This document shows, piece by piece, positions 1,835 to 62,755 of a DNA stretch of 64,000 nucleotides. The position numbers were made by a program, and so were the translations under genes. Under the pieces are notes generated by a model. The model was not told where the DNA came from. It saw only the letters and a program-made list of their open reading frames with translations, and ran no database searches. Position 1 is the first letter of the stretch. Each line of letters begins with the position of its first letter. Source of the stretch: Methylococcales bacterium (GTDB taxonomy: Bacteria; Pseudomonadota; Gammaproteobacteria; Methylococcales; Methylomonadaceae); contig JASMBU010000006.1 in assembly GCA_030753675.1 (NCBI GenBank), positions 1 through 64,000 of the forward strand, given 5' to 3'.

Positions 1835-2077
1835 ATGAGAACTCAAACTAAAGCAAACCAAAAGAGAACATCTATTGCGGATGATTTCGCACTCAAGATT
1901 GTTAAAATCTTGGATGAGTTTGAAGAAACTTATGATCGTAAGTTCTCATCATTAGGGCAAAGAGTCCGTTATCTAAATGAAATTGAGATTACGCGTAGAA
2001 ATGGTTCGGAATGGGATAAAACTGGTATTCGTAGAGTGATTGAAAGAGTAGAACGATTACGAAATGAAACAAATTAG
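1835..2077 (+). CDS. Hypothetical helical protein resembling the recombinase DNA-binding region
   Basis: 80 residues, basic and helical. The C-terminal part (LNEIEITRRNGSEWDKTGI followed by RRVIERVERL) resembles by eye the pattern 'LNxxGIxTxRGxxWxxxxVRRVLxR' of the recombinase domain that follows the catalytic part of large serine recombinases. No catalytic domain is present, so it would be at most a stand-alone DNA-binding protein. It is divergent from the HUH gene. The start has GGAAAC just upstream of the ATG. Confidence 0.5.
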   Translation: MRTQTKANQKRTSIADDFALKIVKILDEFEETYDRKFSSLGQRVRYLNEIEITRRNGSEWDKTGIRRVIERVERLRNETN

Positions 2078-2084
2078 TATCATT

Positions 2085-2192
2085 ATGAGATTATCAATTG
2101 ATGAAATGATACACGATGATACTATTCATATTCTCATGAGAGTGTGTGATGGTTATTTTCTGAAACACCCAACTAAAACTTACTTGGAGTAA
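2085..2192 (+). CDS. Possible 35-aa micro-ORF
   Basis: A 35-codon frame (starts MRLSIDEMIHDD) fills the gap between two plus-strand genes and its last codons contain the GGAG ribosome binding site of the next gene, an arrangement typical of coupled genes. There is no clear ribosome binding site of its own. Product unknown, and the call is weak. Confidence 0.25.
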   Translation: MRLSIDEMIHDDTIHILMRVCDGYFLKHPTKTYLE

Positions 2193-2198
2193 ATAATA

Positions 2199-2501
2199 AT
2201 GTATATCGCAATTAACCGATTCAAAATAGTGATTGGTAAAGAAGATGATTTCGAAACCATCTGGAAGAACAGAGAAACGCATTTGGATGATGTTTCAGGT
2301 TTTAAACAGTTTCATTTAGCAAAAGGCAATACCGAAGAAACGCATACGCCTTATATCTCGCACAGCACTTGGGACTCAAAAGAAGACTTCATCAATTGGA
2401 CAAAATCAGAATCATTCAGAGCAGTACATAAAGGAGCAGGTGGTCATAGTGATGTCTACATCGGTCACCCTGTCTTTGAAGGATTTGATGTCGTTATTTA
2501 A
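2199..2501 (+). CDS. IsdG-type haem-degrading monooxygenase
   Basis: 100 residues, the usual size for the antibiotic-biosynthesis-monooxygenase/IsdG fold. The three residues used by IsdG/IsdI enzymes sit at the right spacing: Asn6 in AINRF, Trp67 in FINWTKS and His77 in FRAVHKG (haem iron ligand). The family opens haem to release iron, in the cytoplasm. A GGAG ribosome binding site lies about ten bases before the start. It is likely cargo in the integrative element, since no haem uptake gene is near. The annotation is firm for fold and residues; the in vivo substrate is inferred. Confidence 0.78.
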   Translation: MYIAINRFKIVIGKEDDFETIWKNRETHLDDVSGFKQFHLAKGNTEETHTPYISHSTWDSKEDFINWTKSESFRAVHKGAGGHSDVYIGHPVFEGFDVVI

Positions 2502-2607
2502 TGACCTACTCTTGAGAAAACCCAACCAGACAGATATCTAATTAGGTTCTTCTGTTCGGTGTGAAATGCATCAAACCTACTGCTGAATTTCTCTCTTTTC
2601 CATCATC

Positions 2608-4092
2608 TCAACTTTCCCAAATTCTAAACTTATCAAACTCAATGAAATCTAGTTTTAATTCCTCAATCAATTCCTTCTTCTGTGTAATGGCACTGGTTTT
2701 ACCGTAACGGTCATAGGTGATTGAAGTGGTTTTAGACTTATGCCCAATAATCTCGGCAACACGATATTCGTCTATCCCACCTAGTTGTTTGTAATAATTA
2801 CTCAAAGTATGTCTGAATGAGTGAAAGTTCTTCTGCTCTGTTTCTAACTGACCCACATTCACATTCTTCTTATAAGTTCGGTTAAACCATTTTGAAAATG
2901 CCTGACTAAACCCATCTCGTGACTCTTTAAGTTCAGGGAACAATCTAGTTTCTTTACCTTGTAATTGTGCAACATACTCTAAGAACTTTAATTGTTTAAT
3001 AAGTATTGAATGAATAGGTACCTGTCTTTGTGAATTAAGTGATTTCAATTTCTTACTATCTTCTCCATTGATATCAATCACCCAAACACCATCAATTTCC
3101 TTAATGTCAGATACATATAACTGACATAGTTCATTAATACGAGCACCCGTAAATAACCCAATCAATGGAATCCAATACTGACTTGCTTTTCGATGCTTAT
3201 TTCTAAAGTAATAGTCATTATTGAACAACAACTTTAAATCACCCTCTGTAAAAACATCTCTAAGTTGTGAAACAATCTTGGTTTTTTTAATAACACCGTG
3301 AAGTGGTCTTTTTAATGATGAATCGCAGTATCCATTTTGTGACATCCAATCCAAGAATGTGCCAATCTTAACGAAGTGATTTTGAATAGTCGTATTACTC
3401 AATAACTCACTGTCTGGAATATCTGAACTCAGTAGTTCAATAATAGATTTGTTTCTGTATTGTTTGACCTTACTTCTATTCGCAGGAATTCTAAATAACG
3501 ACTCTTTGTATTTAATGACATCCTGTTTCGTTAATTGACTGCCCTTTTTGTCACCAACTAACTCAATAAACAAAGCAATCTTAGGTCTATAATCTTTATG
3601 TTCTGTTGAGTTTCTTTGTTTCTCCCCCCAATTGATTCTTTTTTCTGCAATGAACTTCTCAGTCAGTTCAGAAAGAGAGAGTGAAAAAATATCATCTGTG
3701 GATTGATTAGTAGTTGGTTGTGTTTGACGCGCCAGCGAGTCGTTATAGACTCTCAGAGCATTTTCCTCACTAAGACTTAATGAATTAAGAAAATCGGCAA
3801 TCTCAATAGGGTCTTTACTATCAAGTTTATCTAACCGTTGATAGATTAATTTACCTCGATGATATTGCTCATTGAGAGTTTCTGCTTCTTCTTCCCATTG
3901 AAAATCATTTTCTTCCATTTTCAACCACCATATCCTTGCTTTCTTTAATGCTAACAGACGATTGGTTGTTTTTAACGATTTCTTAAATAATTGTCTTTTT
4001 GGAGTCTGAGAGTATTTTTTTGGTATTTGAACTTGAAAATACCATATCCCATGTCGTGATTTGAGTAAATAAGATGGGTTTTGAACTGTCAT
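2608..4092 (-). CDS. Site-specific tyrosine recombinase (integrase)
   Basis: 494 residues. The C-terminal half holds the tyrosine recombinase set: Arg318 in GARINELCQL, His424-x2-Arg427 in HSFRHTL, His451 in IIGHKSKTT and a tyrosine at about 460. The N-terminal part (residues 1-125, RHGIWYFQVQIPKKY) is typical of long integrases found in Vibrio and Shewanella islands, followed by a SAM-like core-binding domain from about 140 to 260. Its 5' end is next to the tmRNA 3' end, so it is the enzyme expected to have placed this element at ssrA. It appears full length and intact. Confidence 0.93.
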   Translation of the reverse strand: MTVQNPSYLLKSRHGIWYFQVQIPKKYSQTPKRQLFKKSLKTTNRLLALKKARIWWLKMEENDFQWEEEAETLNEQYHRGKLIYQRLDKLDSKDPIEIADFLNSLSLSEENALRVYNDSLARQTQPTTNQSTDDIFSLSLSELTEKFIAEKRINWGEKQRNSTEHKDYRPKIALFIELVGDKKGSQLTKQDVIKYKESLFRIPANRSKVKQYRNKSIIELLSSDIPDSELLSNTTIQNHFVKIGTFLDWMSQNGYCDSSLKRPLHGVIKKTKIVSQLRDVFTEGDLKLLFNNDYYFRNKHRKASQYWIPLIGLFTGARINELCQLYVSDIKEIDGVWVIDINGEDSKKLKSLNSQRQVPIHSILIKQLKFLEYVAQLQGKETRLFPELKESRDGFSQAFSKWFNRTYKKNVNVGQLETEQKNFHSFRHTLSNYYKQLGGIDEYRVAEIIGHKSKTTSITYDRYGKTSAITQKKELIEELKLDFIEFDKFRIWES

Positions 4093-4141
4093 TGTATCTC
4101 ACCTGTGTATCTCACCAGTGAAAATCAATGACATTTTGATA

Positions 4142-4175
4142 AAAAATAACCCTTATATTTCAAAGGGTTATTTTT
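4142..4175 (-). terminator. Rho-independent terminator of ssrA
   Basis: A 13-base perfect stem (AAAAATAACCCTT with AAGGGTTATTTTT, arms 4142-4154 and 4163-4175) around an eight-base loop ends in a T-run on the minus strand, a few bases past the tmRNA CCA end. It lies on the element side of the junction, so after insertion the terminator may be supplied by the element or carried in the attachment core. Confidence 0.75.
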
Positions 4176-4180
4176 AAAAT

Positions 4181-4557
4181 TGGTGGAGGCGGGGGGAATC
4201 GAACCCCCGTCCGCAAACACTCCGCCATAAGGTCTACATGCTTATCCCGTGCTTTTGTTTAACTAATAGCTACCCGACAGGCCAAGAAAACTATCAGCGA
4301 TTTCGATTGAGTTTAACGCTTCCAGCTACGAACGAAGCCTTGGCGCGATCTTATGTGAGATGACCTCTGAGTGTTCCGAAGAACTCTGCCCGCATAAGCA
4401 CACACAGTCAGAGGAATGGTGCTGGTTTTACGCAGCTAGAGCCATTGAGTAGTTTTCGTCATTTGCGAATACTTTAAGTTCAGTAGATTTTACGAGGTGT
4501 ACTGTCCTCGGCATGCACTCAAGGTTTTGCTATCCACGTCGAAGCCATGTCGCCCCC
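4181..4557 (-). ncRNA. ssrA: tmRNA (transfer-messenger RNA)
   Basis: The minus strand begins GGGGGCGACATGGCTTCGAC and ends with a T-arm (GGGTTCGATTCCCCC) and CGCCTCCACCA. The first seven bases pair with CGCCTCC as the acceptor stem, one G-U included. The resume codon opens at 4466: codons 4466-4428 read ANDENYSMALAA followed by TAA, a close variant of the E. coli tag ANDENYALAA. The RNA rescues stalled ribosomes and tags the product for ClpXP, with SmpB. It is one-piece and complete. Its 3' end is the insertion point of the element to the left. Confidence 0.97.
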
Positions 4558-4667
4558 TTTATTGCCTAAATAATTCTACAGTATGCAATGATTTGATTCT
4601 ATTAAATTATTTAAATTCACATATAATAGCATCTTTTTTTACTGGCTATCATTCGCAAGAGCAACTT

Positions 4668-5417
4668 ATGCAAAAAACTGTTATCTATGCGCTCGACTTT
4701 GATGGTGTCATCTGCGACAGTGCAATTGAAACTGGTATTACCGGCTGGAAAGCGGCCATACAAATCTGGCCTGACATGAAAGCCCCCCTTCCAAGCACAG
4801 AATTAATAAACCAATTCCGCTTAACTCGACCCGTCATTGAAACAGGCTTCGAAGCTATTTTAATCATCCGCCTTCTTTACCTAAAGCAAAGTATTGATTC
4901 TATTATTAACAACTTCAACACCATCAAACGGCAAGTCCTTGTGGAATCTGACCAAACCCCCGAAGCCCTTAAAAAATTATTTGGGAATACTCGTGATTAC
5001 TGGATTAAAAATAATCTAGATGAGTGGATAGCCATGAACCCACTTTTCCCCGGAATACGTGAAAAATTAAAAAATATAAGTCACCAACCTTGGGCTATTG
5101 TCACCACAAAACAAGAACGCTTTGTTAGCCAAATACTGGTCGCTAATGAAATTAACTTACCCGGTCATTGCATTTATGGCTTAGATCGACAAATGAGTAA
5201 AGAAGCCGTTTTGAGTGAACTGCTCGAAAAAAACCCACAACAAAGCATTCATTTTGTCGAAGATCGACTAGCCACTTTGCTCAATGTCATTGCCAACGAC
5301 CGACTTTCTACACTCACCTTGTCGTTTGCCTTATGGGGTTACAATACCGCCGAAGATAAATCTGCCGCCCAGTCACAACAGCGTATTAATTCCATTACCC
5401 TTGACCAATTCCTTTAA
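4668..5417 (+). CDS. HAD-family hydrolase
   Basis: 249 residues from the ATG at 4668. The longer frame reaches back into the tmRNA gene and is not used. Motif I is DFDGVICDS near the N-terminus, motif II is the Thr in VTTKQ, and motif III/IV is VEDR near residue 200, so it is a haloacid-dehalogenase phosphatase-type enzyme with a helical cap. Its substrate is unknown. A TATAAT at 4622-4627 is a possible -10 element. It is transcribed away from ssrA. Confidence 0.75.
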   Translation: MQKTVIYALDFDGVICDSAIETGITGWKAAIQIWPDMKAPLPSTELINQFRLTRPVIETGFEAILIIRLLYLKQSIDSIINNFNTIKRQVLVESDQTPEALKKLFGNTRDYWIKNNLDEWIAMNPLFPGIREKLKNISHQPWAIVTTKQERFVSQILVANEINLPGHCIYGLDRQMSKEAVLSELLEKNPQQSIHFVEDRLATLLNVIANDRLSTLTLSFALWGYNTAEDKSAAQSQQRINSITLDQFL

Positions 5418-5469
5418 GACGCTCCTCATAGATAAATCAATATCCAGCTAAGCCATCTTATCCTTACCG

Positions 5470-7116
5470 TTATTTTCGATCAGAAATCAACATCCGTGAT
5501 AAGGTGCTATTTTCAACTTCTTGCGGCTTTGCACCAGCACTTTCACACTGTTGAATTAACGCCTGTACCTCCGCGACAATATGATCTCGGGTTTCTTTAT
5601 TTTCCGCCACGACTTTCAACACATCGGCACTGAGTGCCGTCAGTCCTTTTGTTAAACCCGTTGCCAATCCTTTAAGAGCGACTTTTTCCATTGAGGGCTT
5701 CAATTGCCTTTGTATGAAAAAAGGTAATAACCAGGTAATTAAAATCAATAAAATACTGTGAATAGCGAAATCAGTTCCTAAATAAGAACGCTCCGTTATC
5801 CCACTCTGATAATACCCTTCAAAAACTTGGTAACCTACCCAACCCATAGCGGATAACGGTAACACCGCACCCAGAAAAGCAAATAACTTCAAAAAGAATC
5901 GTTGCACACCATTACCGGGCCTAACAAGAGCACCTCTAACGGCTAATTCCACATGCGCTTCAACTTTACTTTTAGCGGTTACACGTAAGGATTGTAATTC
6001 TTGTCTCAGTGGCGCTAATGCGAGACGCTGGTCGTCTGCTATTAAAATCAACTGATCCAGTTCATCTTCATAGCGACTTTGTGCCCAATCATCCCAAAAC
6101 TCTGTCTTAACAGACTTCTTAGGTTCTTGTTTTTCTGTCTTGCGGCGAAACAGTCCTTCCAACAAATGTGTCTCTTTCTCAGCATAATCTGCCGACATAC
6201 ATTGAAGAGGCCAAACCATCCCTTTTTGCAGTATCTCTTCATTTCGCTGCCAATTAAGTAACCAATTATCAACTAATTTCTGATGCGCATCGTCCATACC
6301 AAAACGAGCCAAACAAACCTCTAAACGCTGTTTCAAATCTGCTCTTTTTATCTGTAAACTTCGGTATTCAATTTTAGCTATGGTTTGACGATTAGCTAAC
6401 TGATGAATAGTTACACCCAACCGATTAAACTCATCTTTCTCACTATTGCTGTTCTCGCCGGCGCAAATCGTATTTATGATAATGGGATCAACAAAACCCG
6501 CTTTATGTAACTGCTGCACAAAATCGACTTGCTGTTCGGGTTGGCCCCGATCAAATTGGTTCATTACAAATAACCAAGCATGTTTGCCCCCTTCGGCTAA
6601 TAATAATTGCCAAGCCTTATTATCACGGTAGCGTTCGGGACTAACCACATAAACCAAAACATCAACATGTGCTAGCCACTCCAAAACCAGCGCTTTATTT
6701 TCCATTTCCGTACTATCCATATCGGGCATATCGACCCACATCACATCCTTGTGCGTATCATCTTGATGCGGTGCCGTTCTTATCTTTTCAATCGGAAGAT
6801 GCTCTGGGAATTGTTGCAAAGCAACTGATTGATGGTAAAACAACGTTACTTCTCGAGAGGTCGGTCGCTCGACACCCGTACGCGCAATATCTTTTCCTGC
6901 CAAACGATTAATCAACGTACTCTTACCGACCCCAGTACCCCCTAAAAAAGCGACAATCAATGGGCGTTGGCCGGCATTCGAAAACAAGGCATCGGCATTA
7001 TTAAGCTCTGCTTCAGATAACGCCTGAACCTCAACGGGACTTACCCAACCGGAATCAAGAGTCTGCTGACTCCATTTCTGTGCTTTTCTTACCAGTTCAG
7101 AATAATCGTAATCCAT
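5470..7116 (-). CDS. Dynamin-like membrane GTPase (second of a pair)
   Basis: 548 residues. GTPase motifs: P-loop GGTGVGKST (59-67), DMPDMDS as the G3 region, and MNQFD as a variant of NKxD. Two hydrophobic segments lie at about 410-432 and 450-472, after a helical middle region, giving the order GTPase, stalk-like helices, membrane hairpin seen in bacterial dynamin-like proteins. It overlaps the upstream GTPase gene by 20 bases, so the two are co-transcribed and may form a hetero-oligomer. Its membrane-remodelling role is inferred; exact function unknown. Confidence 0.7.
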   Translation of the reverse strand: MDYDYSELVRKAQKWSQQTLDSGWVSPVEVQALSEAELNNADALFSNAGQRPLIVAFLGGTGVGKSTLINRLAGKDIARTGVERPTSREVTLFYHQSVALQQFPEHLPIEKIRTAPHQDDTHKDVMWVDMPDMDSTEMENKALVLEWLAHVDVLVYVVSPERYRDNKAWQLLLAEGGKHAWLFVMNQFDRGQPEQQVDFVQQLHKAGFVDPIIINTICAGENSNSEKDEFNRLGVTIHQLANRQTIAKIEYRSLQIKRADLKQRLEVCLARFGMDDAHQKLVDNWLLNWQRNEEILQKGMVWPLQCMSADYAEKETHLLEGLFRRKTEKQEPKKSVKTEFWDDWAQSRYEDELDQLILIADDQRLALAPLRQELQSLRVTAKSKVEAHVELAVRGALVRPGNGVQRFFLKLFAFLGAVLPLSAMGWVGYQVFEGYYQSGITERSYLGTDFAIHSILLILITWLLPFFIQRQLKPSMEKVALKGLATGLTKGLTALSADVLKVVAENKETRDHIVAEVQALIQQCESAGAKPQEVENSTLSRMLISDRK

Positions 7117-54669: not shown

Positions 54670-55473
54670 TCATTCCGAAAACAATAAAATTTCACCCTTA
54701 TTCATTTCCAGAGAATCACCACTCCAACTTTGATATTTACCATTCAGATAAGCATCATCAATCGTAAATCCTAACTTCTTTAAATAAATTAGATATCGTT
54801 TTAAAAAGGTTGGCTTATAGGTGGTGTTATAGGTAAATGTAGGTAACAATTGTGCCGCTTGGGTTGAAAAAATAGTTCCACGAACCATACTGGCACCGGG
54901 TCGCTGGCCTAACTGCCCTAAGACCATAATCGTTCCGGCTTTCATATTGACACCGGTAAAATCACCGCTATTGCCACCAATAACAATTAATCCCCGCCTC
55001 ATACCATTACCCACCTCATTCTTGGCATTGCCATGAATAATAATTTCACCGCCTTGAATACCTGTATCACTCCCTCGCACACCACTTCCAACTAAATGAC
55101 CTGCATTGCCTTTAATAACGATACGACCGCCACTCATTTCCCGGCCGACCCAATCTTCAGCATTACCGGTAACCAGAATCTCACCGCCCGTCATTAAAGC
55201 ACCTAAATGCGCGCCAACAGAGCCGTTAATTATAATTTTTCCCTGTGTCATTTCACTGCCAATCAATTTTACTTTTGATAAATCACCCTCAACTTTGATC
55301 GTATCTAACCCATCATCCGTTAGGGTAAAAAAATCAGTCAAGATACAAGCTTGATTACCGTGCATCACCGTCATAGCACCAATCGCATCAAGACTATTTC
55401 CGATAAACTTATCAGGACAAATCACTTCAGTTTCTAAAGGGACACTCGGTAAGGTGTGTAATAATAACTTCAT
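54670..55473 (-). CDS. fhcC: Formyltransferase/hydrolase complex subunit C
   Basis: 267 residues. A right-handed beta-helix of glycine-rich repeats (GAHLGALMTGGEILVTGNAEDW, GREMSGGRIVIKGNAGHLVG, GMRRGLIVIGGNSGDF) related to the C-terminal domain of glutamate synthase, as in FwdC/FhcC. It is a structural partner of FhcA and FhcB. Last gene of the minus-strand operon fhcB-A-D-C, two bases after fhcD. Confidence 0.93.
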   Translation of the reverse strand: MKLLLHTLPSVPLETEVICPDKFIGNSLDAIGAMTVMHGNQACILTDFFTLTDDGLDTIKVEGDLSKVKLIGSEMTQGKIIINGSVGAHLGALMTGGEILVTGNAEDWVGREMSGGRIVIKGNAGHLVGSGVRGSDTGIQGGEIIIHGNAKNEVGNGMRRGLIVIGGNSGDFTGVNMKAGTIMVLGQLGQRPGASMVRGTIFSTQAAQLLPTFTYNTTYKPTFLKRYLIYLKKLGFTIDDAYLNGKYQSWSGDSLEMNKGEILLFSE

Positions 55474-55475
55474 AA

Positions 55476-56363
55476 CTAACCCCGTAGTAATTCATGTAAT
55501 TGCAAATGATATTGACCTAAATTACCGCCATAATTCCCTGCGGTAATCTGCCTGATCCCCTCTCTGGCTGCAGCCATAATTCCTACTCGCATAGCCTCTT
55601 TAACGACGGATTCATCCAATCCGTCAATAACAATCTCCAACACACAAGTCACCTCTTCAGGCAACTCTGTATGCAGTGCCCGTCCTCGTAACGATGGACA
55701 ATAAGCATCATTCGTAGAGGCCGGCAAAGCCTTATACTTTGATCCCGGCTTGCTACCACTACGCACCACGCCATCGGGAAAAGGTAAGATAACACCCTGC
55801 ATCTGCATGGCTTCAACAGCGGCTTCTACCGCCACCAATGTTATTTTTAGGTCCTCACCTAAAACAAGAAAGTTACCGCCGCCCACCGCTTTTTGAATAC
55901 CAAAAGACTCATCAACAAAAAACTCACCTTCCATCACAGGAATCCGCCACAAGCGCTGATCCCCCAAGAGCTTACTGGACTGATAACCATCCCCAAAATA
56001 ACGTAATTTACCGCCCACATTAACGGTTTCCTCAACGTCTAACCCATTAAAACAGGCTGTTGTCGGACATGTCATCACACATTGACCGACACGTTCAACC
56101 AAACGATTAGCCAGTCCTTTGGCACTCCCTGCAAACAACAAAATACTGACTCCAGGACGGCCGTCGAGTGTTTCATCTTCAGTTAATAACCCCTCAATAC
56201 CCGCCTCACATTTACAGCCAATAACCGATGTTGCAAAGCCGGTCATAGAACGCGCCGCTGCCATCGCCCATTTAGGTGTTTCTCCGGTCACAATAACTCG
56301 ACTCCCCCACATCCCAAAGGCTTCTGCGAAGGTATCAATAATTTCCGTTGATTTAATTAGCAT
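55476..56363 (-). CDS. fhcD: Formylmethanofuran:H4MPT formyltransferase subunit FhcD
   Basis: 295 residues, Ftr family. IDTFAEAFGMWGSRVIVTGETPKWA at the N-terminus, CEAGIEGLL, TCPTTACFNGL and the C-terminal REGIRQITAGNYGGNLGQYHLQLHELL match bacterial Ftr. It transfers formyl from formyl-H4MPT (made by Mch) to the furan cofactor. Forty-one bases after fhcA. Confidence 0.95.
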   Translation of the reverse strand: MLIKSTEIIDTFAEAFGMWGSRVIVTGETPKWAMAAARSMTGFATSVIGCKCEAGIEGLLTEDETLDGRPGVSILLFAGSAKGLANRLVERVGQCVMTCPTTACFNGLDVEETVNVGGKLRYFGDGYQSSKLLGDQRLWRIPVMEGEFFVDESFGIQKAVGGGNFLVLGEDLKITLVAVEAAVEAMQMQGVILPFPDGVVRSGSKPGSKYKALPASTNDAYCPSLRGRALHTELPEEVTCVLEIVIDGLDESVVKEAMRVGIMAAAREGIRQITAGNYGGNLGQYHLQLHELLRG

Positions 56364-56404
56364 ATCTATTAATAAATTTAAGGTTATTAAAACTTAAGTC
56401 ATCT

Positions 56405-58060
56405 TTAACTTAAAGATTTTGTCGGCACCACTTCTCCGTCATGAACATAACTGTCATCAACCGGATAGTTTTCAAATTGAATCGTGTAATAATCTTCAAA
56501 GAAAGGTTTTATTTTTTGAGTAATTGCACGGTCGTATTCCGGTTCAACATGCAAAATACGCCCTTGATAATCGGAACAAAACTCATAATCTTTAATAAAG
56601 AATCGACCACTCTTGATGACATAACGTGCCGCATTAAACATGGCTTCTTTATCTTCTTGGTCATCATAAAGAGTAATATCAGCATCCCCCCCAACACCTA
56701 AATGGCCTTTATTATCCAACCCTAATAATTTAGCCGGTGCGGCGCGTGAAATAATTGCAATCTCATACATTGACATTTCACGTTCTAAATCTAATAAACT
56801 GGTACTGTTAATTGCTTTTTGATTAGCCAAAGCGGCCTGTTCTTTCCTGAATTGTTTATCCATCAATAAGCGTATCAATTTTGGATAATTCATAAACGAC
56901 CCCCCATTCGGGTGATCGGTGGATAAAACCATTCGCCAAGGATCTTTTGCCATTAAAAAAAGTTCTAAGCCAATCGCCCACTGTAAAGCATGAGTATAAA
57001 TGTGTTCCTGGTAAGAAAAGGGTAAAATCCCACACCCGCTTTCACACTCAGTATCAGCATTAATCCATTTTTTATTAGTCATATTCCGAAGTTGCCAGGT
57101 TAACGGTGCATCCCCGGTCATGATCGTTGCATCACCAAACATCACCTGACCGACATCAGCACTGACATTGGGGTTGTTATTAATAAAATCTGAAATTTCT
57201 TTCGCCTTAGAAGTCGGATTCTTACCGACCTCACCGCCATAACTGTGAAACTGAATATGGGTAATATGAACACGACGCCCTTCCGCTGTTTTCATCGTTT
57301 CAATAGTCGTTGTATAATTTCCGCTATGCCCTAAATTATTACAGTGAATATGCGCAGGATGCGGTAACCCTAAATCATTCGTCGTATCAATCAGGGCCTT
57401 AATGATCTTTCTAGGTGTTAAATCAAAACCGCGAATTTGCTCATCTAAATTATGAACATTAGAATTTCTATTGCCTTTCCAAGGTTCATCCCCACCAGGA
57501 TTAACCAATTTAACCCCATAGCCTTTCGCCGCATTTAACCACCAAGCAACAGCCTCTTTAAATTCTGCCATGCGGCCTTTTTCAAGTAATTGATTGAGGC
57601 AAACATTATTTGCCAACAAGATATAAAAACCTTTATCAATCACCGGTGTGTCATGTAATTCCTCAATGGTGTGCCGGGCACCTAACGGAGGAACAGCCGC
57701 TTCCATTGCTGTGGTATAGCCCAAAGTTGCATAACGGTAACCGGTCGTAAATGTGGATGGGACACTGCCTCCAGTACCAGAGCGCAATTCATTCACCCGT
57801 GGTGAAACATCATGACGCTTACTTTCAGGTTGAAACTTCCGCGCCATGTTCACTTTATGACCCGCAATATGGCAATGAATATCTACCCCGCCCGGTAATA
57901 CCACCATTCCATGGGCATCAATGCAAGGGCTGTCATCGGGCACCGAATCAACAATCTTGCCATCTTTAACACAAATATCCTTAATTTCACCATCAATCCC
58001 ATTAAGCGGATCGTAGACTTTTCCATTTTTTATTCGAATTGCGGATGACATTTTTTCCAC
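56405..58060 (-). CDS. fhcA: Formylmethanofuran hydrolase subunit FhcA
   Basis: 551 residues, amidohydrolase fold. Metal ligands: VDIHCHIAGHKVNMARKFQPES has the His-x-His, GVKLVNPGGDEPW carries the lysine that is carboxylated in FwdA, HIHCNNLGHSGN has further histidines, and LSTDHPNGG the aspartate. It hydrolyses the formyl furan to formate plus the amine cofactor. All metal ligands appear present, so the hydrolase should be active. Twenty-one bases after fhcB. Confidence 0.95.
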   Translation of the reverse strand: MEKMSSAIRIKNGKVYDPLNGIDGEIKDICVKDGKIVDSVPDDSPCIDAHGMVVLPGGVDIHCHIAGHKVNMARKFQPESKRHDVSPRVNELRSGTGGSVPSTFTTGYRYATLGYTTAMEAAVPPLGARHTIEELHDTPVIDKGFYILLANNVCLNQLLEKGRMAEFKEAVAWWLNAAKGYGVKLVNPGGDEPWKGNRNSNVHNLDEQIRGFDLTPRKIIKALIDTTNDLGLPHPAHIHCNNLGHSGNYTTTIETMKTAEGRRVHITHIQFHSYGGEVGKNPTSKAKEISDFINNNPNVSADVGQVMFGDATIMTGDAPLTWQLRNMTNKKWINADTECESGCGILPFSYQEHIYTHALQWAIGLELFLMAKDPWRMVLSTDHPNGGSFMNYPKLIRLLMDKQFRKEQAALANQKAINSTSLLDLEREMSMYEIAIISRAAPAKLLGLDNKGHLGVGGDADITLYDDQEDKEAMFNAARYVIKSGRFFIKDYEFCSDYQGRILHVEPEYDRAITQKIKPFFEDYYTIQFENYPVDDSYVHDGEVVPTKSLS

Positions 58061-58081
58061 CTTATAGACAAATTTTTATGG

Positions 58082-59425
58082 CTATGCTGCTGCCGGTTTA
58101 TGGTTTGGGGTTATTCCTCTTAACTCACAAATGCGTTCTTTTATCGCACGCAAAACTACTTCATCACTCGGGAATGGCGAATCAAAAGCAGGCCGGAGTG
58201 ATAAAGGAACATTGTCCATACGATAAACTGTACCCGGCACATTAATTCCATAAGTCGCCGTGGTAAAGGCAACCTTGGCATGCTGGCTAGTCACCGTTGG
58301 CTTAGGATCTAAGGTAATAACCGGAATTAATTTGATATGCTCAATGGCTTTTGCAGAAAAGTTTGAACCCGGGTCACTGGCAATAACACACAATGCATCG
58401 GCCTCTCCACGGCCTAAAACATCAGCGGTGGTAAATTCACCGGGGTTAAAGCGCGGATACCCCCGATTAAAATTAACCCCAAAATTATACCCTGTCTGCC
58501 AAGCAACGACATTATCAGCTCCCGTGACGTTGCCATGCCCACGCGTAGGCATAGATACAAAATGGGTAAAGTCATTTAAATCAGTTACTAATTGTAATAA
58601 CGCCCCGACATTAAAATGTCGCCCCCGTGTCATCGTGAGACCCATCCCAAAGAACAAGACACCAAACTGACAGTCCTTCATTTGCTGGACTAAGGCTTCT
58701 AATCGATCCAAACTGATACCGGTTCGCTCTTCAACCGTCCGGTCAAGTGCCCGACCTTTTACCAGAGCGCGCATTGCCCACAATAATTCAAAATCACTAC
58801 CCGGTTTTATTTGCAGGAAAATGTCTGCAATCAACGAACTTTGTGTTGGCCGAATATCCACCATTGCAATGGTTCGGTCCTCTTTACCGTTTGGCATCCA
58901 GGGGCTTTTAGGATTAACCGCATAACGCTCAAAATGCCGAGGATGAGCCTCCGCTGGATTCCCGCCCCAATACATGACAAAATCAGCTCTATTCTTGATT
59001 TCACCCAAACTTGCCGTACTTTCACCGACCCCTTGAAAAGCCATTCCCGTAGGGCCATGACAGACCGAGGTTGTGGTATCGATGTTGCCGTTAAGATAAT
59101 CAGCAATGGCAACCGCTTGTTTTTGCGCCTCACAGGTTGTATCGCTTAACCCATAAATAGTCGGAAATTTTGCATTCGCAAGAACCTCTGCAGCCGCATA
59201 AACGGCCTCTTCAAGACTGGCTTCTTTACCATCAATCAATGCGACCGGAAAATCCTCGACTTTGTGCTCTAAAAACCATGATTTCCCAAGCACGCAGGCA
59301 TTCTTCGCTTGGGTAATATGTTTACCACCCGAATCAACAGTCAATTCAATATCGTCACAAACACAGCCGCAAAACGTACAAATTGCATTTTCTATAACTT
59401 TAGAAGAACCACTCATCACCCTCAC
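58082..59425 (-). CDS. fhcB: FhcB/FwdB-like molybdopterin subunit with intact redox motifs
   Basis: 447 residues with a GTG start at 59425; an ATG at 59416 (MSGSSKV) is equally likely and has GGTGAGG close upstream. Counting from the GTG, Cys16-x2-Cys19-x3-Cys23 (ICTFCGCVCDD) and Cys44 form a [4Fe-4S] set, and Cys122 in TTSVCHGPTG is the cysteine at the Mo/W-ligand position of archaeal FwdB. Bacterial FhcB is usually described as lacking these functions (Methylobacterium, from memory). Here the protein looks redox-competent. First gene of the operon, divergent from the FwdD-CysJ fusion. Confidence 0.9.
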   Translation of the reverse strand: MRVMSGSSKVIENAICTFCGCVCDDIELTVDSGGKHITQAKNACVLGKSWFLEHKVEDFPVALIDGKEASLEEAVYAAAEVLANAKFPTIYGLSDTTCEAQKQAVAIADYLNGNIDTTTSVCHGPTGMAFQGVGESTASLGEIKNRADFVMYWGGNPAEAHPRHFERYAVNPKSPWMPNGKEDRTIAMVDIRPTQSSLIADIFLQIKPGSDFELLWAMRALVKGRALDRTVEERTGISLDRLEALVQQMKDCQFGVLFFGMGLTMTRGRHFNVGALLQLVTDLNDFTHFVSMPTRGHGNVTGADNVVAWQTGYNFGVNFNRGYPRFNPGEFTTADVLGRGEADALCVIASDPGSNFSAKAIEHIKLIPVITLDPKPTVTSQHAKVAFTTATYGINVPGTVYRMDNVPLSLRPAFDSPFPSDEVVLRAIKERICELRGITPNHKPAAA

Positions 59426-59696
59426 CTAGTCCTATTTTATCCAATACCCCTGACAAAACCCAAGCAATCCAGGTTTTATTGATTTATTCTTAACTCAATT
59501 AATCTTAATTTACCTACCAACCATCCATCTGCCGAAAAATTCAAACCTGATACTACCTTATCAAGAAAGAGAAATGAAGTAAGAAGTTCTATCTCTTTAT
59601 AATATTTAATTTGAATTATCTTATCGGTTTACCTTATGCTAAGACCCGAAAAGTTTTCTTTAATGACAATTAATAAATAATATCTGGAGTGAAATT
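59426..59696. promoter_or_regulatory. Divergent control region of fhcBADC and the fusion gene
   Basis: 271 bases with no gene. For the plus strand there is TATAAT at 59598-59603 and, separately, TTGAAT (59611-59616) 18 bases from TATGCT (59635-59640), each a possible promoter of the fusion gene, whose GGAGTG ribosome binding site follows. For the minus strand nothing stands out. The shared region makes co-regulation of the two units likely, but this is inference. Confidence 0.45.
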
Positions 59697-61901
59697 ATGG
59701 CTGAAACCATGATCCTGATTCCCGTTCGTACCAGCCGGCAAGGTACATCGTTGAATGCAGGAAAATTAAAAGATAACTACCGTGATGAAACATCAACGAT
59801 AGAAATTCATGGCGAAGACATGACAAGACTGGGGTTAACCAAAGGTGACCGCGTCAGAATGATCTCCATTCATGGGGCTTGTGCCGAAGTCACCTGTAAA
59901 GCACAGAAAGGAGCAGATGCCGTTCCAGGACTGATCTTCATGGCTTATGGACCCACATCAAGCTTATTTATGGAGGCAGATACCGCAGGAACTGGTATGC
60001 CTTTATCAAAGCAACTGGAAATCACGCTAGAAGGGCCCTTAGCACCTGATGGCTCTGTTATTCCCGCTCAACCCAACCTAACTGGCATAACCAGTAATTT
60101 AGCTGCTAGCCCACTGTCCGTTGACCAAGTCGGCTTTCTTAACGCCTTATCAGGCAGTCAATTCAGTCCTGCTCAAGCCTTATGGCTCAGCGGTTACTTT
60201 GCCGCTTTAAGTGGTTCCGGATTAGCGCCTGGCGACTTTACCGGCTCAACCCAAACCAACAATACCGCACAACTGCCTTTACTCACTATCCTGTTCGGTT
60301 CTGAAACCGGTAACGGTGAACATTTAGCAGAAGACCTACTGGAACAAGCCAAAGCCAAAGGGTTTAATGTCCAAATACAAGACATGATGGACTATGACGT
60401 TGCTAATTTACCCGATGAACAATACCTATTAGTCATTGTCAGCACCCAAGGCGAAGGCGATCCACCATTAACAGCGGGTAAATTACACAACTATTTCAAA
60501 AATGATGAAGCGCCTGAACTAACACAATTAAAGTTTGCCGTTTTTGCTTTAGGCGATAGCAGTTATGAATTTTACTGCCAAACAGGGAAAGACTTCGATG
60601 ACTTTTTGGCCAAAACCGGCGCCACACGACTATTGGATCGCGTTGATGCCGATATTGATTTTGAAGAACCTGCTGAAGCTTGGATAGATGATGTTTTAGC
60701 ACTTTATCAAACTGTAGCAGAAAAAGCCGGCGGCGCTGTTTCTAACCGTGATACCGAAAAAACTACCTCTAAAAAATCAACCTATTCCAAAACAAACCCC
60801 TTTATGGCACCAATGCTTAACGTTGTTAACCTTAATGGCGAAGGTTCAATTAAGGAAACCTGTCATATTGGAATAGACCTGACAGGTTCAGAGCTAAGCT
60901 ATGAGCCTGGTGATGCTTTAGGCGTTTATCCACTCAATGACAGCCGTTATGTCGAGCAACTATTAAACACACTTAATATGACTGGTGACGAAATCGTAAC
61001 CCTTGGAAAAGAGGAATTACCGCTCAAACAAGCTTTTCAAGAAAGGCTTGATATCACGGCGCTTAGCCGCGTCAACATGGAGAAATTTGCTGACTTAACC
61101 GCCAGCGATGCACTCAAAAAATTATTAGCTAAAGACAACAGTGAACAATTCAAAGACTATATCTGGGGCCGACAAATACTGGATCTGGTTGAAGACTACA
61201 CTAGCGAAAACTATAGCGCCCAAAACTTTATCACTATTTTAAGACGCATTCCTGCCAGGCTTTATTCTATAGCCTCCAGCATCAAGGCCCACCCTGAAGA
61301 AGTTCAGTTACTAGTTGGTTCTGTACGCTACAACAGCTTCGAACGCGACCGTGAAGGGGTCTGCTCAACGTTTTTAAATGGCCGGGTGACGCCCCCTGAA
61401 ACATTAGCTGTTTATGTCCATGCCAACAAAAACTTCAGTTTACCTAAGGACTCTAATACGCCCGTGATTATGGTCGGCCCCGGAACCGGGCTAGCACCTT
61501 TCCGTTCATTCCTTGAAGAACGAAAAGCCACCGGTGCAAGTGGTCCCAACTGGCTGTTTTTTGGTGACCAACACCAAGCCTGTGATTATCTCTATGGCGA
61601 TGAGCTTGACCAAATGAAAAGTGATGGTCTGTTAACCAATTTAGACCTTGCTTTCTCAAGAGACCAAGAAGAAAAAATTTACGTCCAGACGCGAATCCTT
61701 GCTCGCTCAAAAGAAATCTACGAGTGGCTGGAAAAAGGAGCCTACTTTTATATTTGTGGTGATGCGGAACGAATGGCCAAAGACGTACACAAAGCACTCA
61801 TAGAATCTGTCAAAATTGAGGCGGGTATTGATGAACAGGCCGCTGAAAGCTATATCGATAAGTTGCTTGAAAGCCGGCGCTATCAACGTGATGTATATTA
61901 A
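59697..61901 (+). CDS. FwdD-like molybdopterin domain fused to CysJ-like NADPH diflavin reductase
   Basis: 734 residues in one frame. Residues 1-115 match FwdD, the small formylmethanofuran dehydrogenase subunit that holds part of the molybdopterin dinucleotide: GKLKDNYRDE, EDMTRLGLTKGDRVRM, GLIFMAYGPTSS and DTAGTGMP. From about 138 it is CysJ-like to its end: PLSVDQVGFLNAL...LWLSGYFAAL, flavodoxin (GSETGNGEH 201-209, TQGEGDPP, LGDSSYEFYCQTGKDFD), FAD site RLYSIASS (521) and GVCSTFLNG (554), NADPH site VGPGTGLAPFRSFLEER (593) and the C-terminal RRYQRDVY. No sulfite reductase haemoprotein gene is near, and the neighbour is fhcB. Most likely it docks on FhcB and moves electrons between its Mo/W site and NADP(H). 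Confidence 0.88.
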   Translation: MAETMILIPVRTSRQGTSLNAGKLKDNYRDETSTIEIHGEDMTRLGLTKGDRVRMISIHGACAEVTCKAQKGADAVPGLIFMAYGPTSSLFMEADTAGTGMPLSKQLEITLEGPLAPDGSVIPAQPNLTGITSNLAASPLSVDQVGFLNALSGSQFSPAQALWLSGYFAALSGSGLAPGDFTGSTQTNNTAQLPLLTILFGSETGNGEHLAEDLLEQAKAKGFNVQIQDMMDYDVANLPDEQYLLVIVSTQGEGDPPLTAGKLHNYFKNDEAPELTQLKFAVFALGDSSYEFYCQTGKDFDDFLAKTGATRLLDRVDADIDFEEPAEAWIDDVLALYQTVAEKAGGAVSNRDTEKTTSKKSTYSKTNPFMAPMLNVVNLNGEGSIKETCHIGIDLTGSELSYEPGDALGVYPLNDSRYVEQLLNTLNMTGDEIVTLGKEELPLKQAFQERLDITALSRVNMEKFADLTASDALKKLLAKDNSEQFKDYIWGRQILDLVEDYTSENYSAQNFITILRRIPARLYSIASSIKAHPEEVQLLVGSVRYNSFERDREGVCSTFLNGRVTPPETLAVYVHANKNFSLPKDSNTPVIMVGPGTGLAPFRSFLEERKATGASGPNWLFFGDQHQACDYLYGDELDQMKSDGLLTNLDLAFSRDQEEKIYVQTRILARSKEIYEWLEKGAYFYICGDAERMAKDVHKALIESVKIEAGIDEQAAESYIDKLLESRRYQRDVY

Positions 61902-61916: not shown

Positions 61917-62023
61917 TCAACTTCATCCTGTTGATAGGATTATGTTGGCAACAAGAATCAGGTAAAATAAGATGTTAATTGTTAAATTTACCAAATCCTT
62001 TAACTAAATATTTTACTGTTATT

Positions 62024-62755
62024 ATGTTTTTGAAAAAATTCTATTCTAGATCCAACCCAGCCATCCAGATTACGGCAGAGCAAGCGAGCCGATTCGCTAA
62101 AGAAATCGCCGGTGACTTCAATCCCCTACACGACCCTGATTCAAGACGCTTCTGCGTTCCGGGCGACTTATTGTTTGCACTGGTTTTAGAAAAATACGGC
62201 TTAAGTACGGATATGAACTTTACCTTTTCTAACATGGTCGGTCATGGTGTTAACCTTATCTTTCCCGATCAAAACAGTAACTCGATTGACATCCATGATG
62301 ACAAATCAAATACCTATTTAACTGTGGGTCATGACGGCCAAAACACCTCGGACAAATCACAGGTAGAAAACTTCATCAAGAATTATGTCGCGTTTTCAGG
62401 CCTTAATTTCCCCCATGTTCTGGTTCCCCTCATGGCTGAACAAAAGACCATGATCAATACTAATCGCCCTTTAGTCATCTACGAGAGCATGTCATTCAAA
62501 TTAAACCACCTTGATTTCACTGATCACCAGATCGTACCTGCCGATAATACCTTAGAAGTCAATGGTCGCCGCGGAGAGGCCCATCTACACTTTGATATTT
62601 TATCCGATGACGGTCAAATTGGACACGGTTTTAAAAAAATCCTGATCAGTGGTATTAAAGACTATGACCATGATGTCATTCATGCCTTTACTGAGAACTA
62701 TCTCGCCCATAAACACACGTATCAGCAACAAATACTTGAATCAGTATCTTCCTAA
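62024..62755 (+). CDS. DUF3581 family protein
   Basis: 243 residues from the ATG at 62024 (MFLKKFYSRSNPAIQ); the longer frame to 61979 adds 15 unconserved residues. ITAEQASRFAKEIAGDFNPLHDPDSRRFCVPGDLLFALVL is the hotdog-fold signature shared with MaoC-type dehydratases and is typical of DUF3581. Function unknown. Confidence 0.83.
   Translation: MFLKKFYSRSNPAIQITAEQASRFAKEIAGDFNPLHDPDSRRFCVPGDLLFALVLEKYGLSTDMNFTFSNMVGHGVNLIFPDQNSNSIDIHDDKSNTYLTVGHDGQNTSDKSQVENFIKNYVAFSGLNFPHVLVPLMAEQKTMINTNRPLVIYESMSFKLNHLDFTDHQIVPADNTLEVNGRRGEAHLHFDILSDDGQIGHGFKKILISGIKDYDHDVIHAFTENYLAHKHTYQQQILESVSS

Follow-up and report, generated by a model that had tools for sequence, protein, structure and literature searches.

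The stretch of DNA analysed here (hereafter the window) comprises the first 64,000 nucleotides of contig JASMBU010000006.1 of a Methylococcales bacterium (assembly GCA_030753675.1), and it carries a gene that joins a domain of the formylmethanofuran dehydrogenase subunit FwdD to a CysJ-type diflavin reductase (positions 59697–61901, forward strand). The gene is one uninterrupted frame of 734 codons and a stop codon, with many stops on the opposite strand, and profile searches match both of its halves. Across an intergenic region of 271 bp (59426–59696) it is divergent from the cluster fhcB-fhcA-fhcD-fhcC, located on the reverse strand at positions 54670–59425. Promoter and terminator scans of this region gave results no better than those for shuffled sequence, with one weak promoter match against 1.3 expected by chance.

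The FwdD domain occupies residues 1–115 (59697–60041) and is a double-psi beta barrel that corresponds to the molybdopterin-binding domain at the C-terminus of formate dehydrogenases. Residues 6–88 match the Pfam family Molydop_binding with 37.7 bits (cut-off 26.8, passed), and residues 6–111 match the NCBIfam FwdD model NF042908 with 52.5 bits (E 5e-14), under the cut-off of 175 of this narrow model. Among the sequences of solved structures, the five best matches to this part are all FwdD (2ki8, 9sfi, 5t5i, 7bkb and 8rja; E 1e-11 to 9e-8). A structure model of residues 1–121, built from 16 natural sequences, had a predicted local distance difference test score (pLDDT) of 80.9, and a Foldseek search with it returned seven FwdD chains at the top, followed by formate dehydrogenase and then by designed and natural double-psi barrels. 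In the pairwise comparison with the fusion of genome G191, the ratio of non-synonymous to synonymous substitution rates (dN/dS) was 0.104 for the whole gene and 0.075 for the FwdD part, which, judged by this ratio, is under strong purifying selection.

Residues 137–734 match the cysJ model TIGR01931 with 690.8 bits (cut-off 668.15, passed), covering profile positions 3–597 of 597. Both ends of CysJ are kept, namely the N-terminal segment at residues 137–172 (60105–60212), where the TIGR01931 match begins, and the terminus ...RRYQRDVY. Between them the Pfam domains follow in the order flavodoxin, binding flavin mononucleotide (FMN; residues 198–329, 60288–60683, PF00258, 112.8 bits), flavin adenine dinucleotide (FAD)-binding (residues 364–559, 60786–61373, PF00667, 98.6 bits) and NADP(H)-binding (residues 592–699, 61470–61793, PF00175, 58.4 bits). 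The motif WLSGYF of the N-terminal segment, a segment with a role in the oligomerisation of E. coli CysJ, is invariant in all ten aligned full-length fusions, and so are S654, R655, K660 and Y662 of the motif SRDQxxKxY (residues 654–662, 61656–61682). After cytochrome P450 reductase and CysJ, we take this Ser-Arg...Lys-x-Tyr pattern to be the contact with the 2'-phosphate of NADPH, marking the use of NADPH over NADH; the diflavin part is accordingly read as a predicted NADPH-specific reductase, having the residues expected of one.

The fused frame is present in 12 of the 311 genomes of the order and so cannot stem from an assembly artefact in a single genome. The first-pass annotation, made from the window alone, had proposed a single uninterrupted gene with FwdD at the N-terminus and a complete CysJ, both ends included, at the C-terminus. 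Translation, separate profile searches and Foldseek confirmed this, and the five best structure sequences together with the seven top Foldseek chains place the N-terminal part with FwdD, not with an unrelated beta-barrel family.

All four genes of the divergent cluster are assigned by profile matches: fhcB (58082–59425, 447 amino acids, TIGR03129, 503.5 bits, over the cut-off), fhcA, encoding a FwdA-type amidohydrolase (56405–58060, 551 amino acids, TIGR03121, 709 bits), the formyltransferase gene fhcD (55476–56363, 295 amino acids, TIGR03119, 416.8 bits) and fhcC (54670–55473, 267 amino acids, TIGR03122, 259.8 bits). The FhcB protein scores 373 bits to the archaeal FwdB 8rja_B versus 46 bits to 6s6y_B of the bacterial Fhc structure, which we take to be that of Methylorubrum extorquens. 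The same preference for the archaeal enzyme over bacterial Fhc is seen in FhcA (509 bits to 8rja_A versus 366) and FhcC (178 versus 129), whereas FhcD is slightly nearer to bacterial Fhc (323 versus 299). The histidine, lysine and aspartate motifs of FhcA, presumably the metal-ligand residues of FwdA, align with those of 8rja_A and indicate a FwdA-like active site.

The residues of FhcB were compared in an alignment of 14 FwdB-type and four classical rows (without G001, G046, G1090, G1061, G600, G601 and G718). All 14 FwdB-type rows have the iron-sulfur cysteines Cys16, Cys19, Cys23 and Cys44 (59294–59380 in the window) and the pair Cys122-His123 (Cys122 at 59060–59062). In the four classical rows the Cys-His pair is missing and the cysteine set is never complete, with one or two of its four members left in each. 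The counterpart of Cys122 in the alignment with FwdB 5t5i_B is the cysteine of SVCHGP. The FwdB cysteine ligates tungsten, and it is Cys116 in the F420-linked enzyme (PMC11493965; this paper and the others cited here are drawn on in excerpt). By these residues and scores, the FhcB of the window is FwdB-like, unlike the textbook Fhc subunit. As for ferredoxin-type subunits such as FwdG and FwdF, no frame with CxxCxxCxxxC was found in the 12 fusion loci scanned (the window, ten others and that of G1090; 3 to 20 kb for the loci other than the window). FwdF is also absent from the F420-linked Fwd (PMC11493965).

We then consider the distribution of these genes in the order, sampled initially as 201 genomes and later as a whole (311 genomes), the FhcB identity being tested in 213 of the 311 (201 and 12 more). 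The FwdD profile finds the domain in 14 of the 201 genomes. Matches to the FhcB of the window occur in 175 of the 201, with 63–100% identity in exactly the 14 FwdD genomes and at most 33% elsewhere among the matches listed. Thus, FwdD and FwdB-type FhcB occupy the same 14 genomes, with none having just one of them, which bears out the expectation of the first-pass annotation that the fusion goes with a cysteine-bearing FhcB. The agreement also holds within mixed genera: in g18 G198 has both and G133 neither, in g29 the same applies to G002 and G010, in g32 five of the ten genomes listed have both and five neither, and g25 behaves likewise. A second FhcB match is seen in 13 of the 14 carriers, G002 having a single one, among the matches listed. 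In the whole order the FwdD profile finds 15 of 311 genomes, and the newcomer, G1090, also has a FwdB-type FhcB. In G1061 the diflavin part of the fusion (97% identity) lies beside fhcB, which is also of the FwdB type; the FwdD part could not be scored because that stretch of the contig reads N. Ten further genomes of the order have FhcB matches of at most 32% only.

Hence there are 13 fusion genomes, the 12 seen with the fused frame (that of the window included) and G1061, while FwdD is unfused in three; the fusion of G046 is cut by the contig end. The fusion is divergent beside fhcB in 11 of the 13, and the order FhcBADC is kept next to it wherever the contig permits. Directly downstream of the fusion in the window lies a gene of the DUF3581 family (61979–62755, forward strand), found there also in G154, G191 and G1061 of the same genus; it had no match in the examined fusion loci of other genera.

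In a phylum-wide sample the FwdD profile found one of 398 genomes, that of the window, and there was no FwdD match in plasmids. In the class of G599 it found five of 385, all unfused by frame length (119–254 amino acids) and gene order; four of these five are all four genomes examined of the order of G599. Thus, a wide spread of FwdD in the phylum is not supported, and none of the samples searched showed the fusion outside the order of the window. Among named records, the nearest are metagenome assemblies that bear the titles Methylococcaceae and Crenotrichaceae, together with L004 (Rhodospirillaceae) and L005 (Alphaproteobacteria); going by the family names, the carrier cells would oxidise methane.

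In the three genomes of the order and the five of the class of G599 with unfused FwdD, fwdD lies directly upstream of fhcB. The statement of the first-pass annotation that bacterial Fhc has no D subunit of this kind does not survive these eight clusters, nor the bacterial operon in print (PMC7325909). The cluster order is fwdD-fhcB-fhcA-fhcD-fhcC, complete in G004, G016, G598, G599, G601 and G718; in G009 two frames make up fhcD, with fhcC beyond the contig end, and the contig of G600 stops inside fhcB. A separate electron partner accompanies seven of the eight clusters, the contig of the eighth (G600) being too short to judge. A gene for the ferredoxin FdxA is located directly upstream of fwdD in G004, G009 and G016; the G004 protein scores 164 bits (cut-off 135), and all three copies have Fer4 and DUF3470. 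A large Nfn-like flavoprotein, composed of GltD-like and FNR-like parts and scoring under the cut-offs of the named models, adjoins the cluster in G004, G009, G599, G601 and G598, the last having a 213-amino-acid piece of it where the contig stops. The partner in G718 is an NADPH-ferredoxin reductase of the FprA type (locus L143, 1887–3254, reverse strand; 361 bits to 1lqt), whose gene begins at the end of fhcC. These partners are most simply explained if one enzyme has swapped its NAD(P)-linked outlet, using a ferredoxin and/or a flavoprotein in some lineages and a fused FMN/FAD reductase in others.

A clean alternation between the fusion and the Nfn-like protein was considered and not found, as the Nfn-like gene is present in 15 of the 16 genomes searched. 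The Nfn-like proteins at loci L032, L033, L145 and L146 are 1174–1219 amino acids long, and the best model for the two copies scanned is PRK06567, under its cut-off. In G600 both kinds of Fhc are adjacent: at L144 (1152–5606, forward strand) a classical fhcB-fhcA pair is followed on the same strand by fwdD and a FwdB-type fhcB.

The domains, the cofactor-ligand residues, the gene order and the co-occurrence can be read directly from the genomes. From them, the gene most likely encodes subunit D, with a built-in electron outlet, of a formylmethanofuran (methylofuran) dehydrogenase that is redox-active and of the FwdB type, and we put at a little under 0.8 the probability that the fusion carries electrons from the oxidation of formyl-methylofuran at FhcB to NADP+. 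The link from one-carbon (C1) oxidation to NADP+ suggested by the first-pass annotation is supported in this sense; the formation of the complex, the electron path and its direction would be as follows, NADP+ being the acceptor predicted from the domains and the context. FhcD would transfer the formyl group from formyl-tetrahydromethanopterin to methylofuran, and FhcA would hydrolyse formyl-methylofuran to formate, which would pass through an internal tunnel to the molybdenum or tungsten (Mo/W) pterin of FhcB. There, with the FwdD domain closing over the pterin, formate would be oxidised to CO2, and the two electrons would move from the [4Fe-4S] cluster of FhcB to the tethered FMN domain, then to FAD and finally to NADP+. 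The net reaction would be formyl-methylofuran + NADP+ -> CO2 + NADPH + methylofuran. The potential of the NADP+/NADPH couple is about -0.32 V. For the formyl-methanofuran (formyl-MFR) reaction a value of about -0.53 V is given (PMC11656701). With these two potentials the direction would be towards NADPH, with about -40 kJ/mol, and the reverse would need another energy input.

More broadly, and with less assurance, we consider it probable that bacteria own an NADP+-dependent formylmethanofuran dehydrogenase, that is, a second, redox-active Fhc that would convert formyl-methylofuran to CO2 without free formate and pass the electrons to NADP+ via the FwdD-fused diflavin reductase, the NAD(P)-linked outlets of such enzymes being built from three unrelated kinds of parts (the CysJ fusion, FdxA with the Nfn-like protein, and FprA).

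Since the diflavin part passes the CysJ cut-off and keeps the CysJ N-terminal segment, the protein could instead be a CysJ with an accidental or scaffolding FwdD domain, serving sulfite or nitrite assimilation. In that case one would look for its partner CysI, which was searched in 14 genomes, 11 of them with the fusion (G1061 and G1090 were not among these). CysI was not found in ten of the 11 fusion genomes tested, including that of the window, which is 99.5% complete. The only CysI, in G030 (749 bits to TIGR02041, just under the cut-off, and 765 bits to PRK13504, cut-off 457), has as its direct neighbour an ordinary CysJ that is separate from the fusion and lacks FwdD (745 bits to TIGR01931). 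Thus, as the first-pass annotation had supposed, cysI is not beside the fusion in the fusion genomes tested. The other 13 genomes gave weak matches only, of at most 57 bits, nearly all to frames of 540–573 amino acids, with two more to frames of about 848 amino acids in G000 and G198. One such frame, in the genome of the window, is a 550-amino-acid siroheme reductase of the nitrite/sulfite family without an assigned electron donor, which speaks for this reading; however, its best models are ferredoxin-nitrite reductases, under their cut-offs. The position of the fusion beside fhcB in most fusion genomes and the low dN/dS of the FwdD part also argue against a role in sulfite or nitrite assimilation, which we regard as improbable. 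The siroheme gene itself (L093, contig C55, 3053–4702, reverse strand) reaches no NCBIfam cut-off and is perhaps the putative assimilatory siroheme enzyme of these cells. With a threshold of E 1e-20, the fusion is the sole CysJ-like match in its genome; a second, weak match extends over fusion residues 572–697 at 24% identity.

Two other alternatives leave the complex in place and change its reaction. The same complex could run in reverse, NADPH driving the conversion of CO2 to formyl-methylofuran for C1 assimilation. CysJ-type diflavin reductases do normally pass electrons from NADPH to an acceptor, and the archaeal formylmethanofuran dehydrogenases (FMDs) also reduce CO2 (PMC11656701). Against this, the reaction would have to climb about 0.2 V with no bifurcation to drive it, H2, although at -0.414 V, is described as incompatible with a role as FMD donor (PMC11656701), and the nearest named records belong by title to methanotroph families, in which the formyl groups would come from methane; we hold this direction to be unlikely. 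It is also conceivable that FhcB and the FwdD-diflavin protein act mainly as an NADP+-dependent formate dehydrogenase on free formate, with FhcA, FhcC and FhcD as a scaffold, given that FwdB and FwdD equal one formate-dehydrogenase-like unit and that the Foldseek search with the FwdD model also finds formate dehydrogenases. Yet, where the contig permits, the fusion has the FhcBADC set in unchanged order next to it, the window has the FwdA-like active-site motifs, and a dedicated formate dehydrogenase, FdhA, already exists in the same genome, so that this seems slightly more doubtful still. A replacement of a lost formate dehydrogenase was likewise considered and is rejected for the genome of the window, where FdhA scores 752 bits, over the cut-off; FdhA is over the cut-off in 17 of the 19 genomes searched, the exceptions being G191 and G046.

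The origin of the diflavin part was addressed with a tree of 23 diflavin domains, which did not include the fusions of G046 (contig end), G1061 and G1090, nor the fragments of the interrupted CysJ-like gene of G198. Of the CysJ rows, G030 and Paenibacillus have CysI beside them, while those of E. coli, Proteus and Aeromonas, which carry no annotation, are named CysJ by similarity. The ten fusions group together (93/87; 92% of 200 bootstrap trees), and the rows nearest to them are not those of CysJ or NasN but two multihaem-cytochrome–diflavin fusions from the same order (98/99). The tree thus does not favour an origin from a NasN-type nitrate reductase, and by sequence and fold the N-terminus is nearest to FwdD. 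The two multihaem proteins, at L088 in G012 (2523–5720) and L089 in G034 (1898–5146), both on the forward strand, combine a multihaem c-type cytochrome (MtrC/MtrF-like) and a CysJ-type diflavin reductase in one frame of 1066 and 1083 amino acids, respectively, with uncertain start codons; these putative enzymes possibly link haem chains to NADP(H). The CysJ-like gene of G198 (L090, 4124–5876, reverse strand) is in two frames and may be a pseudogene or an assembly error.

Several points weigh against electron transfer from FhcB to NADP+ through the fusion. The carriers are related genomes, hence the co-occurrence counts are not independent events. In two of the 13 fusion genomes, G001 and G1090, the fusion is not beside fhcB; in G001 it adjoins genes for 4-HFC-P synthase (methanofuran biosynthesis) and DUF6513, and fhcBADC is on another contig. 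The full-length model of the fusion is of low confidence (pLDDT 60.2, predicted template-modelling score 0.31), and the support for the grouping of the fusions in the diflavin tree is only moderate. With a classical fhcBADC and a formate dehydrogenase also in the genome of the window, CO2 could be reached without the new complex, which would then represent an additional branch. Nor do the five clusters of the class of G599 contain a ferredoxin-motif frame, so the absence of such frames from the fusion loci is not special by itself. Finally, the Nfn-like gene is found on other contigs in ten of the 11 fusion genomes tested, and its linkage to the unfused clusters is therefore weaker evidence than that of FdxA or FprA.

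Among the known systems, the F420-reducing Fwd of Ca. Ethanoperedens thermophilum (8rja; PMC11493965) likewise has a FwdABCD core and converts formyl-MFR to CO2, and a flavoprotein module there replaces the polyferredoxin and yields a two-electron carrier, this likeness serving as a precedent. In contrast, that enzyme is archaeal, its carrier is F420, and its FwdI is a separate subunit reached via FwdG (PMC11493965), while the system described here is bacterial, with NADP+ as the predicted carrier and a CysJ-type module fused to FwdD. The archaeal Fwd/Fmd enzymes (5t5i, 7bkb) have high-scoring homologues of FhcB, FhcA, FhcC and the FwdD domain with the cofactor ligands conserved, but the fusion loci scanned are without a ferredoxin-motif frame, and the electrons would be expected to leave via flavins. 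The archaeal D-subunit fusions named in PMC11237513 are to subunit B. Bacterial Fhc (6s6y) shares the four gene families and the C1 pathway position with the cluster of the window; the classical bacterial FhcB is without a Mo/W cofactor (PMC10100899, PMC12054007), whereas the FhcB of the window has the ligand residues.

The operon fwdDBA-ftr-fwdC of Hakuba Actinobacteria (PMC7325909) is bacterial and its gene order matches that of the unfused clusters; its FwdB has the [4Fe-4S] motif and the catalytic Cys118, and fwdE, fwdF and fwdG are absent. It differs in that the excerpts mention no fused or neighbouring NAD(P) flavoprotein and that its authors did not see methanopterin-synthesis genes. 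The diflavin nitrate reductase NasN (MSMEG_4206; PMC7816997) is also an NADPH-dependent molybdenum enzyme, and in NasN-like proteins a nitrate reductase chain ending in a molybdopterin-binding domain is joined to a CysJ-like reductase (PMC7816997). As FwdB and FwdD together make one formate-dehydrogenase unit, a diflavin reductase tied to FwdD resembles these proteins, and residues 19–734 of the fusion align in one piece with a protein annotated as bifunctional nitrate reductase/sulfite reductase flavoprotein. However, NasN has its catalytic domains and its diflavin part in a single chain, while the fusion of the window starts at FwdD and the catalytic FhcB is a separate gene. From CysJ, whose whole architecture and motifs it has, the fusion differs by the extra FwdD and by the missing CysI noted above.

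In a survey of FwdB, 149 bacterial and 399 archaeal representatives were obtained from 751 hits, and a transfer from Archaea was inferred (PMC10100899); its excerpts mention neither a diflavin/NADPH module nor a FwdD fusion. The electron modules of these enzymes have been reviewed (PMC11656701). No description of a FwdD-CysJ fusion or of an NADP+-linked formylmethanofuran dehydrogenase was found in the open-access literature, seen in part, with subscription papers mostly outside its scope. With the Hakuba operon in print (PMC7325909), an unfused FwdD encoded in a bacterial operon has already been described; what we found undescribed in these sources is the NADPH module.

The fusion points to a route by which methane carbon would directly supply the cell with reducing power, usually beside the ordinary enzyme for the same step. 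Aerobic methanotrophs need NADPH for biosynthesis, and how C1 oxidation in these bacteria is split between energy and reducing power is a practical and an ecological question. If the proposed function is correct, the direct and strongly downhill link from formyl-methylofuran to NADPH would be an unrecognised branch point and would offer a reason for the presence of two fhc clusters in some of these bacteria. A natural NADP+-wired formylmethanofuran dehydrogenase would also provide a starting point for formate or formamide biocatalysis, and bacterial FwdB homologues may then be working CO2-releasing enzymes with NAD(P) outlets of their own.

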